DNA of 64,000 bases, taken from contig NZ_CP109479.1 in NCBI RefSeq assembly GCF_036227485.1, positions 5,146,001 through 5,210,000 on the forward strand, in the 5' to 3' direction. The position numbers and the translations under genes were made by a program. This DNA is from Streptomyces sp. NBC_01451 (GTDB lineage Bacteria > Actinomycetota > Actinomycetes > Streptomycetales > Streptomycetaceae). Of this stretch, positions 19,233 to 26,301 are shown in pieces. Each line of letters starts with the position of its first letter. Positions within the stretch are counted from its first letter, which is position 1. The notes under the pieces are model-generated. The model worked only from the letters and a program-made list of their open reading frames with translations, was not told the DNA's origin and made no database searches.

Positions 19233-20056
19233 CGCCCCGACGCCTCTCCACTTGTTACGTCCCGTTCGTCCCGCCCGCTCCGCTCGTCCGGTCCGTTCGG
19301 CCCCTCCTGGTAGTGGCGCAGGAACAGCTCCTCCAGTGTGGGCGGTGTCGACCGCAGCGACCGCACGCCCGACTCGGTGAGCGAACGCAGAACCGCGTCC
19401 AACTTGTCTGTTTCCACCTGGAGTTGGACCCGCTTTCCCTGTACGGCGAGGTCGTGGACGCCGGGCAGGCCCGCCAACCCGTTCGGAGCGCCGGCCAGTT
19501 CCGCCGTGATGCTCGTCCGTGTGAGGTGGCGCAGGTCGGACAGTGAGCCGGTCTCCACCGTGCGGCCCTTGCGGATGATGCTGACGCGGTCGCACAGCTC
19601 CTCGACCTCGCTGAGGATGTGGGAGGAGAGCAGGACCGTACGGCCCCTGTCCCGTTCCTCCTCCACGCAGGTCTGGAAGACCTCCTCCATCAACGGGTCG
19701 AGTCCTGACGTCGGTTCGTCGAGGATCAGCAGGTCCACGTCCGAGGCGAACGCCGCCACCAGCGCCACCTTCTGGCGGTTGCCCTTGGAGTACGTCCGGC
19801 CCTTCTTGGTCGGGTCCAGCTCGAACCGTTCGAGCAGGGCGGCGCGGCGTGCCGGGTCGAGGCCGCCTCGGAGCCTGCCGTACAGGTCGATGACCTCGCC
19901 GCCGGAGAGGTTGCGCCAGAGGGTGACGTCGCCGGGGACGTACGCGATCCGGCGGTGCACCTCCACCGCGTCCGCCCACGGGTCCCGGCCCAGGATCCGC
20001 GCGGCGCCGGAGTCGGCGCGCAGCAGGCCGAGCAGGACGCGGATGGTCGTGGACTT
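19229..20056 (-). pseudogene. ABC exporter ATPase, C-terminal part, split by prophage
   Basis: From the junction at 20055-20056 leftward the frame reads [13 protein letters not shown], then the signature YSKGNRQKV, Walker [14 protein letters not shown] and switch [15 protein letters not shown]. That is about 275 residues of a DrrA-like ATPase. Its first 45 codons are now at 59058-58924. A phage-derived ATG at 20092 opens a hybrid frame ([16 protein letters not shown]), but it lacks the GPNGSG half of the P-loop, so the product would not bind ATP normally. The rejoined gene would code for about 320 residues. Confidence 0.9.
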
Positions 20057-20077
20057 CCCCACTACAGGCTTGGGGCT
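20036..20077. other. attL (host half-site + phage half-site)
   Basis: Crossover core TT at 20055-20056. To the left is the host ATPase gene; to the right is the phage arm 20057-20077, which contains TACAGGCTTGGGGCT (20063-20077). The same 15 bases occur in inverted orientation at attR. Placing both phage arms around the TT/AA core rebuilds a symmetrical attP of about 44 bp, as large serine integrases need. Confidence 0.85.
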
Positions 20078-20090
20078 TAGTTTGGGTGGC

Positions 20091-21782
20091 ATGACCCATC
20101 AAAGTATACCGAACCGGACAAGCGGGACGTTCTCAGGCTCCAAGCCTCTGACCAGCAAGGATGATCGGCTGGACGTCGCCTATGACCGCGTGTCGCTCGA
20201 TGAGCAACAGACAGGGGGCACCACAGAGTCCCAGTGGGGCGAGAACCAAGGATGGTTCCAAGACACCTTTGAGCGTCCGCTCACGCGCAGGTACTCAGAC
20301 GTCGGTATCTCCGCGTACTCAGGCGTTGAGCGCCCGGATTTCAACCGCCTGTGCGCGGACATGGCGGCGCGGAGCGTGCGCACTGTGACCGTGTGGCATG
20401 CGGACCGCCTCACGCGTGACCCTGCCCAGGCGCTCTATTTCATTGACCTGTGCATTGCGCACAGTGTCCGGCTGTATTCAACGCAGCGTGGCGGAGAGTA
20501 CAACTTTCACAACCCGCAGCAACACGCAGACTTCCTCACGGACGTCGTCAACGCCCGGAAAGAGTCCGCCCTCAAGGCCAAGCGGGTTGGCCTTGCTCGC
20601 TTGCGGCAAGCGCGCAATGGCGAGTGGGGCGGAGGCGTCCGCCCGTTCGGTTGGGGCGTCGACACTGGGCGCGTCACTAACAAGTGCCTCAACCCAAAGG
20701 CGCCCATTGCCGAACGTCAGTATGTCGAGCGTCCCGTGTTGGACATGACCCAGCACAACAAGGGTGAGGCTGCGGAAATCCAGACCTGGGCGACAGAGCT
20801 ACCGGGCACCCAAGGGAACATTGCGGCCCTCATTCGCAGTCTCAAGGCGCGAGGCGTCGAGACTGTCTCAACGAAAGAGGGTCGGACGTACAAGCACGGC
20901 AAGAAAGAGTTCACGGGTTCGCAGTGGAGTAGTCGGACTATCGTCCAAATTCTCCTGAGTCCGCGTACGTCCGGTCACTCCGTCTACAAGGGAGAAATCG
21001 TCAAGTACAACGCCTTCCCAGCGATCATCTCTGACGAACAACGCAAGGCGCTCTTGATCCTCTTGAAAGACCCTGCGCGCCGGAAGCAAACCGGCAATCA
21101 GCCTAAGTGGCTTGGCTCGCTCATCTATGAGTGCCCACACTGCACAACAGACGAGAACGATCCGGCAATCATGACCGTGCGGAAGTCGGCTACGGGAGTC
21201 GACGTGTACCGCTGTAGGAACTGCGGCAGGGGGCGACAGTCCGCGGAGTTGCTAGACGATTTCGTAGCGCGCCTGTGCATCACTCGCCTGTCACGCCCGG
21301 ACGTTTCCAGTCTCGTCAAGCCTGTCAAGGAAGTGGACTTTAAGGGCCTGCGCGAGGAATTGACGGAGCTTGAGGCAGCCAAGACAGAGGCTGCGCAGGC
21401 GTTCGGCGCGAGGCTCATCAAGTTGCCTGAGTTCACAACGGCGTGCGCTACGTCAGACCTGCGGATAGCAGAGATCAACAAGGAACTAGCGGAGGCGGTA
21501 CAGGATGATCCCTTGGCGCCGTTCGCAGTCAACTACGGGAATGCGGAGCAAGTTTGGAAGGGGCTAAGCCTCGCGAGGAAGCGGGAAACGGTTCGTCTCC
21601 TGTACCGCATCGAGCTACAGCCGTTGATGCGTCGAGCCGGTAGGCCACCCAAGAACGCGCCCAAGCGAGAGCTTGACCTCTCCAAGCTCATCATCACGCC
21701 AAGGGGCAAGGGCGCCAAGCCCATTGACCTCTCACGGTTCAAGGTCAAGGCATGGACCGAAGGTAATCAGCAAGCTGCGTAA
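20091..21782 (+). CDS. int: Large serine integrase
   Basis: 563 residues from an ATG at 20091, only 34 bp from the attL core. The catalytic domain has [11 protein letters not shown] (nucleophile Ser in YxRVS) and [12 protein letters not shown] recombinase domain follows ([51 protein letters not shown]). Next come a zinc ribbon (CPHC and CRNC, about residues 347-385) and a C-terminal coiled-coil ([21 protein letters not shown]). It recombines attP with an attB in the ATPase Walker A codons. In the circular phage its promoter would have to lie across attP; after integration that DNA is separated from int. Confidence 0.96.
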
Positions 21783-25314: not shown

Positions 25315-25446
25315 ATGCTCGCAACCGCATTGCGTGCGCTAGTTCATTGGGTAGCGCCGTGGCGCCACTCTTGGATAGAGACTTCCGCAGGGCCGCTCAA
25401 GTGGACATGCCGAACGTGTGGGGCCATTGAGCACGAGTTGCCGTGA
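25315..25446 (+). CDS. 43-residue protein with CxxC
   Basis: Starts MLATALRALVHWVAPWRHSW and ends TCRTCGAIEHELP. It fills the gap exactly and its TGA overlaps the GTG of the methyltransferase gene, the same coupling seen along this operon. A truncated zinc-ribbon-like peptide of unknown role. Confidence 0.45.
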   Translation: MLATALRALVHWVAPWRHSWIETSAGPLKWTCRTCGAIEHELP

Positions 25447-25967
25447 TCCTCTCCCTGTGTTCGGGCATAGGCGCGCTTGATTACGCCGTTGAGCGCCTTA
25501 CAGGCGAGCGCGTAACCCTCTATGCGGAAAAGGCGTATTGGCCATCACTGGTCATGGCTCGCAGGTTCCCGGACGCTCACAACCTGGGCGACGTAACGCA
25601 GGTTGATTGGGCAGCCGTGGCGGTCGAGCATCCAGAAATCACAACTATCGTGGCGGGTTTCCCCTGCCAAGACATAAGCCATGCAGGCACTCGCAGGGGG
25701 ATACGTGGGAGACGTTCGGGAGTATGGGCGTCCGTTGCCCAGGCCATTCGCGAGATACGACCACGAATCGCGTACTTGGAAAACGTCGCAGGGCTGCGAG
25801 GAAGGGGCCTTGACGTCGTTTCAGGGGACTTGGCCGGTTGCGGGTATGACCTTGAATGGGTATGCCTACCGGCTGCCTCCGTGGGCGCCTCTCACCTGCG
25901 CAACAGATGGTTTGCCGTTGCCTCTCCTGCCAACTCCAACCGCAGCCGACAACATCCGGGGCCCTGA
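25443..25967 (+). CDS. Cytosine-5 DNA methyltransferase, alpha part (catalytic motifs I-VIII)
   Basis: 174 residues from a GTG overlapping the previous stop. Motif I is LSLCSGIGALDYAVE; the catalytic PC loop is GFPCQDIS (Cys75); motif VI is LENVAGL (113-115 ENV); motif VIII-like HLRNRWF is at 151-157. It transfers a methyl group from AdoMet to C5 of cytosine. The protein stops right after motif VIII and lacks the target-recognition domain and motifs IX-X, which are in the overlapping +1-frame gene that begins at or after 25681. Together they look like a two-subunit enzyme of the M.AquI kind or a frameshift fusion. Confidence 0.85.
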   Translation: MILSLCSGIGALDYAVERLTGERVTLYAEKAYWPSLVMARRFPDAHNLGDVTQVDWAAVAVEHPEITTIVAGFPCQDISHAGTRRGIRGRRSGVWASVAQAIREIRPRIAYLENVAGLRGRGLDVVSGDLAGCGYDLEWVCLPAASVGASHLRNRWFAVASPANSNRSRQHPGP

Positions 25968-26301
25968 TTATGCGCGCGCCTCTCGCCCTGATTCAGGGGG
26001 CGACGACTTGGTAACCACGCTCGCGCGCCTGGGCGAAACGGGTTGGGGCAAGTACGGCCCTGCGGTCGAGCGTTGGGAGCGCGTCACGCGTTGCCCTGCC
26101 CCTGCCCCCATCGAGATAGGGCCGCGAGGCGGTAAGCGCCTGTCACCCCGTTTCGTCGAGTGGCTTATGGGTCTACCCGCAGCCTGGGTTATGGGCGTCC
26201 GGGGGATGGACCGGACAGAGGCACTACGCGCCATCGGTAATTCAGCCGTACCGCTACAGGCTTACAGGGCGTATCGGTACCTCACGAGAGAGAGAAAGTG
26301 A
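25681..26301 (+). CDS. Cytosine-5 DNA methyltransferase, beta part (recognition region, motifs IX-X)
   Basis: 206 residues in the +1 frame relative to alpha, overlapping it by 287 bp. FARYDHESRTWKTSQ and TSFQGTWPVAGMTLNGYAYR (residues 23-64) match a block I know from the C-terminal halves of phage C5 methylases. RLSPRFVEWLMGLPAAWV is the IX-like region and RTEALRAIGNSAVPLQA is motif X. The ATG at 25681 has a weak ribosome site and a TAA 3 bp upstream; later GTG/TTG starts are possible. Because the block at 25747-25890 overlaps alpha's ENV motif, both frames of the same DNA appear to be under protein constraint. Confidence 0.8.
   Translation: MQALAGGYVGDVREYGRPLPRPFARYDHESRTWKTSQGCEEGALTSFQGTWPVAGMTLNGYAYRLPPWAPLTCATDGLPLPLLPTPTAADNIRGPDYARASRPDSGGDDLVTTLARLGETGWGKYGPAVERWERVTRCPAPAPIEIGPRGGKRLSPRFVEWLMGLPAAWVMGVRGMDRTEALRAIGNSAVPLQAYRAYRYLTRERK

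Follow-up and report, generated by a model that had tools for sequence, protein, structure and literature searches.

The locus analysed here very probably (at roughly four chances in five) makes a two-subunit C5 DNA methyltransferase whose beta subunit is overprinted on the gene of the catalytic alpha subunit, on the same strand and in the +1 frame. The window, i.e. the whole stretch of 64,000 nucleotides that was analysed, comprises bases 5146001-5210000 of the Streptomyces sp. NBC_01451 genome, a single contig of 10.27 Mb. Its relatives suggest that selection preserves both readings of the overlap; the evidence for this dual selection spans several phage lineages, and both products belong to one enzyme. 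To our knowledge, long same-strand overlaps with recognisable family motifs in both proteins are rare. Two-polypeptide C5-methyltransferases are already known, and what is new, as far as we found, is the dual-selection evidence put together here. The features of the locus are as follows, in window coordinates and with the motif numbers that we take to apply.

25443..25967, + strand: alpha, catalytic half of the C5-methyltransferase, motifs I-VIII (PF00145, phrog_363)
25665..25667, + strand: catalytic cysteine codon of alpha, in FPCQD, presumably motif IV (sequence)
25681..25704, + strand: in-frame ATG extension upstream of beta, probably unused (matching ATG in the relative L110, then a stop)
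25705..26301, + strand: beta, +1-frame subunit with block B, a TRD-like module and motifs IX and X (phrog_1008 for the longer ORF, L110 alignment)
25738..25878, + strand: block B of beta, dual-coded, in +1 over alpha from motif VI to just before VIII (shuffle test, synonymous constraint in relatives, alignment of 73 sequences)
25779..25787, + strand: ENV of alpha, presumably motif VI, whose +1 reading is part of the WKTS of beta (sequence)
25890..25913, + strand: SHLRNRWF of alpha, presumably motif VIII (sequence)
25924..26031, + strand: module of beta with a putative TRD role, LLPTPTAADNIRG...LVTTLARL (alignment)
26137..26187, + strand: presumed motif IX in beta (alignment)
26230..26283, + strand: presumed motif X in beta (alignment)

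The alpha ORF has a GTG start and 174 amino acids, and matches positions 3-162 of PF00145 (5.6e-29) as well as phrog_363 (1.5e-50). Motifs I, IV (PCQ), VI (ENV) and VIII of the C5-methyltransferase family are all found in it, and its catalytic motifs are intact. The longer ORF in the +1 frame, from ATG 25681 to 26301, matches phrog_1008 at 1.6e-42 and PF00145 only weakly (positions 270-313, E 0.32). Its motifs IX, which reads RLSPRFVEWLMGLPAAW, and X, which reads AIGNSAVPLQA, are accordingly faint against PF00145 and clear in the protein alignment with relatives and phrog_1008. The sequence-only reading had described a methyltransferase split over two frames with family motifs in both, and both the ORFs and the motifs are borne out by these matches. 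It had also proposed searching the two products against phage proteins, which yields homologues in 1012 (alpha) and 571 (beta) of 50,697 phage records. The predicted structure of beta is of moderate confidence (pLDDT 76.8), and block B forms four strands in the models, with a mean pLDDT per ten residues of 66 to 83 and of 52 in the last ten.

The overlap of 287 bp given in that reading corresponds to a start at ATG 25681 and has to be shortened to 263 bp, since beta probably starts at GTG 25705, which leaves a chain of 198 amino acids (25705-26301) that extends 334 bp beyond the end of alpha. This assignment follows from two comparisons. In the nearest relative found, the locus L110 of Streptomyces sp. 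SID13726 (beta 71% identical, both frames kept), the codon that matches ATG 25681 opens only MQAPGVE and then meets a TAG, and the GTG directly after that TAG aligns with GTG 25705 of the window. In addition, when the first start codon within 30 bases is used, every one of the 21 distinct beta products of phiBT1 type that were listed has a GTG 18 bases 5' of its block-B match. The Shine-Dalgarno match at the beta start is weak.

Concerning the layouts found among relatives, 216 of 238 loci were retained, namely those whose alpha match reaches 90 bits and spans no fewer than 120 model positions, and the other 22 were dropped. The split form of the window occurs in 61 of them (some phages are included twice, and 53 differ near the alpha stop), and 99 are fused, with IX and X in the alpha frame (class F). 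In another 19 (class N) IX is read in +1 and X in the alpha frame, in 29 IX is read in +1 and X is unassigned, and the last 8 are of other or unclear type. The window layout is also present in L110, L081, phiBT1-type Streptomyces phages, mycobacteriophages and Arthrobacter phages, and relatives of the mycobacteriophage Phanphagia occur in both split and fused forms, with the core constrained in both. Block B matches of at least 20 bits number 206, in 204 loci, and all 206 overlap the alpha VI-VIII region in +1. Among these matches in the fetched loci none lies in the frame of alpha VI-VIII or apart from it, so that homologues carrying both blocks in one intact frame, named beforehand as the finding that would speak for an assembly deletion, did not turn up; such a deletion is further contradicted by L110, which has the same layout. 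Nested forms also exist at moderate GC: the gene has 47% GC in Paenibacillus phage Shelly and 45% in Escherichia phage Delraymugoa, hence GC richness is not the reason for the open frames there. The record of Shelly calls the +1 gene 'g55 internal gene', and that of Delraymugoa leaves it unannotated.

Block B is more than a +1 echo of the conserved letters of alpha. It should be noted that these letters do force part of the +1 reading: in many loci ENV becomes W(K/R)TS, and DLADLGYDAQW becomes TWPTSGMTRNG, so a resemblance between the block B sequences of different phages is no proof on its own. The alpha protein was therefore held fixed while its synonymous codons were shuffled 1000 times, and the block-B score in +1 was compared, using two profiles that were both trained without the window. 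The window scores 45.9 bits (shuffles: mean 9.5, sd 6.9, maximum 34.1) with the profile from mycobacteriophage-type, Arthrobacter and other loci, and 47.3 bits (mean 9.7, sd 7.5, maximum 38.8) with that from phiBT1-type loci, so that with each profile its score is reached by 0 of 1000 shuffles. Over all 23 such tests, which cover 17 different loci, the observed score is reached by 0 to 2 of 1000 shuffles. A stop-free overlap is kept in 45 and 38 of 1000 shuffles in two runs. In the relatives, the +1 frame over the core is free of stops in 206 of the 216 loci and the +2 frame in 46, and the protein consensus of block B is kept over 73 sequences.

Synonymous change in alpha is reduced over the stretch shared with beta in relatives, which suggests an overprinted pair and bears out the expectation, raised in the sequence-only reading, that homologous loci would change less at such sites. 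In the phiBT1-type split set, fourfold differences are 0.53 upstream, 0.22 over the core and 0.54 at motif VIII (column permutation p 5e-5). The drop is also found in the L003-type mycobacteriophage split set (p 5e-4), in the Phanphagia-type split and fused sets (p 5e-5 each) and in two more fused sets (p 0.0036 and 0.0042); the set-wise test covers 7 of 11 sets, the other four being fused sets. At motif VIII the fourfold sites of alpha vary freely once more in both the phiBT1-type and the Phanphagia-type sets. The pair of the window and L110 taken alone gives 0.52 upstream, 0.38 over the core and 0.33 at VIII, which is not significant (permutation p 0.26).

A broader comparison of disjoint pairs from the 216 loci, restricted to those with alpha identity above 0.55 whose fourfold sites upstream differ by 0.12 or more, gives lower core differences in 87 of 98 pairs (Wilcoxon 9e-15), which are not perfectly independent by descent. 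By class, the core is lower in 25/26 split-split, 35/39 fused-fused, 8/8 fused-split and 7/9 N?-N? pairs, in 3/4 N-N and 1/4 N-N? pairs, which are divergent and show no clear trend, and in 8/8 of the remaining mixed classes. Differences fall by more than half, from 0.43 to 0.18 in split and from 0.38 to 0.15 in fused pairs. Over the core, third positions of alpha drop and first positions stay free, as coding in +1 predicts and unlike what a recently exchanged patch would give.

Ordinary C5-methyltransferases of the same genus served as a small control. A first pattern found 15 of 30 loci, 14 of them usable, which gave 6 disjoint pairs with the core lower in 4 (0.39 upstream, 0.35 core), and a second pattern found 12 of 30 loci and gave 4 pairs with the core lower in 2 (0.39 against 0.37). 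None of the 14 or 12 parsed control loci has a block-B match, and all 12 of the second pattern carry at least one stop in +1 over the block-B stretch. Pooling all 47 control pairs above 50% identity gives 0.62 upstream and 0.49 over the core, a drop of a fifth, which counts against the overprinted reading.

The results above bear on several other explanations. That block B is a mere +1 echo of alpha motifs, with beta starting downstream (e.g. at ATG 25846) and only a short coding overlap, would agree with the forced W(K/R)TS and TWPTSGMTRNG readings, with the RemusLoopin record, which starts beta after block B for an overlap of 32 bp, and with P0006 and P0009, which likewise begin after block B. 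We regard it as very unlikely, given that no codon shuffle reaches the +1 score of the window, that synonymous sites of alpha are held over the core and released at VIII in the phiBT1-type and Phanphagia-type sets, and that in the same-genus control the drop is far smaller among disjoint pairs and block B is absent. Constraint by an RNA or DNA element instead of a second protein draws on the fact that synonymous constraint alone does not name its cause, yet it is highly improbable: the constraint sits on third positions of alpha with first positions free, the pooled pattern after VIII in fused pairs follows the +1 frame (which alignment in the beta frame may favour), and a protein consensus of block B holds over 73 sequences.

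A programmed +1 frameshift near the alpha stop, yielding a single chain like the in-frame fused relatives, was the other option offered by the sequence-only reading. The 99 fused loci, and the window alpha ending in CCC TGA, a shape known from +1 shifting, would fit it. However, the 53 split loci with distinct ends show 24 different codons before the alpha stop, with CCC in the window only, so that no conserved shift site is found there; the beta start codon is conserved, and a chain fused near that stop would lack block B, the conserved part. Recoding is thus quite unlikely, and of that reading's two options it is the two-subunit enzyme with an overprinted gene that the phage homologues and the constraint on alpha over block B support. 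A sequencing or assembly error, or a decaying frameshifted pseudogene, could be suspected from fused relatives that differ by an apparent indel between VIII and LLPTP, but is hardly credible with the split form common to 61 of 216 loci, with both frames kept in L110, and with the catalytic motifs intact.

In the proposed overprinted enzyme, alpha would bind SAM and supply the catalytic residues through motifs I-VIII, and beta would be translated in +1 from GTG 25705, inside the alpha message. The overprinted, beta-rich block B may then dock on alpha, the LLPTP module of beta would read the target, and motifs IX and X would close the fold by supplying the missing parts of the small domain and of the large-domain helix. 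The assembled subunits could methylate phage DNA and so protect it from host restriction. We infer that beta carries specificity because its module lies between VIII and IX and because the modules vary in number. According to the available parts of PMC3404938 and PMC5944983, bisected C5-methyltransferases complement best if cut between VIII and the TRD. The alpha/beta split falls between VIII and the TRD-like stretch, i.e. at the efficient split site of the bisected enzymes.

Among known systems, the beta gene of M.EcoHK31I is nested in the alpha gene in another frame, and the M.AquI genes barely overlap. As far as the available part of PMC3404938 describes them, M.EcoHK31I consists of two polypeptides, with I-VIII and X on the larger alpha and IX on the smaller beta. 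In M.AquI, alpha has I-VIII, and beta has IX-X together with what remains of the variable region. M.AquI had been cited beforehand as the precedent for a split enzyme; it does stand as a two-subunit precedent but is not the sole one, M.EcoHK31I being a two-polypeptide enzyme as proposed for the window. The motif layout of M.EcoHK31I (IX on beta, X on alpha) is that of the class N relatives (19/216 loci), whereas alpha of the window stops after VIII, and its beta holds X as well as IX and overlaps alpha without being nested in it, running 334 bp further. At the sequence level the window resembles M.AquI, with I-VIII and IX-X on separate chains, and differs from it in the 263 bp read in two frames and in block B, which precedes the TRD-like stretch of beta.

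The 'DNA methylase' pairs of phiBT1-type Streptomyces phages (RemusLoopin 34/35, Vash 32/33) are split in the same way and likewise contain block B, the TRD-like module and motifs IX and X. The number of TP modules differs, with two in RemusLoopin (LLPTPTVAD, LFKTPTANL) and one in the window, and the beta annotated in RemusLoopin begins downstream of block B. The phiBT1 record annotates alpha but not beta and remarks of alpha 'DNA methylase may be inactive', a comment that would suit half an enzyme. PHROG families 363 and 1008 include alpha and beta, are named only 'DNA methyltransferase' and are silent on the overlap. Two papers on actinophage methylases (PMC9957025, PMC11855218) deal, in the parts available, with inteins and out-of-frame HNH insertions and not with an alpha/beta overlap, and no description of this overlap was found in the literature searched, which was covered incompletely.

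We lean slightly towards a wider reading, in which the whole of this branch of C5-methyltransferases, in phages and prophages alike, has a dual-coded specificity beta, even where the enzyme is annotated as one complete chain. With the same slight preference, block B and the LLPTP/WPTP modules would lie in +1 across alpha VI-VIII and beyond, and only IX and X would wander between frames. In fused loci the +1 product runs past block B into LLPTP modules: at least one TP module is present in +1 in 93 of 95 fused loci, and 50 of 95 have no LLPTP-type motif in the alpha frame after VIII, the alpha-frame pattern being stricter than the +1 pattern. After VIII, differences at the three +1 positions are 0.22, 0.23 and 0.37 in 24 pooled fused pairs and 0.24, 0.23 and 0.38 in 6 pooled nested pairs, under an alignment in the +1 frame that somewhat favours that frame and with several single fused pairs flat (for example L193-L194 and L190-L207). 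Pooled, these stretches of fused and nested loci vary as if they were +1-coded.

If the wider reading is true, hundreds of phage methylases depend for activity or specificity on a partner that is often unannotated, and many phage 'DNA methylase' annotations denote half an enzyme. Paired or overlapping methylase calls in actinobacteriophages would be explained, and there would be a natural stock of bisected C5-methyltransferases, which are sought after for targeted methylation, divided at the best-working place. With split, fused and nested forms now catalogued, it can be tested directly how an overprinted gene arises and is resolved.

Concerning the genomic setting, the methylase sits in a probable prophage. 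A large serine recombinase at 19338-21782 of the window (PF00239, PF07508) is likely its integrase, an exonuclease gene (phrog_1674) lies upstream of the methylase, and downstream follow Prim-Pol and AAA genes and then terminase, portal and tape measure. The same genome has six PF00145 matches, as well as a second match to the C-terminal part of beta at 5428102-5428335 on the minus strand (L080; 47%, in an open frame of 324 amino acids).

Several relatives show further arrangements. A nested +1 beta with motif IX is seen at 1105-1809 of L269 and within 1152-1991 of L271 (Paenibacillus and Escherichia phage, 45-47% GC). In some nested-type loci (L053, +1 ORF 678-2192; also L056, L050 and L070) the +1 product contains a long tandem series of (L/W)xTP modules, some ten of them in L053, and these resemble target-recognition units arranged one after another. 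Gordonia phage Rabbitrun (L005, 1230-2093) has one alpha-frame ORF of 287 amino acids with IX and X, with block B and a PTP...GGDDLVT stretch remaining in +1, and is a halfway form. Alpha is seemingly broken into two frames in L133, L137 and L186, with block B still in +1 to the VI-VIII piece, and two alpha-like genes, each with a +1 block B, share one region in L204 (1-534 and 984-2201) and in L205. Finally, the nested +1 product of the fused-type locus L009 matches 339 phage records, and 58 of the 60 listed have a single annotated feature at the matching place, so that one of the two readings is often unannotated.
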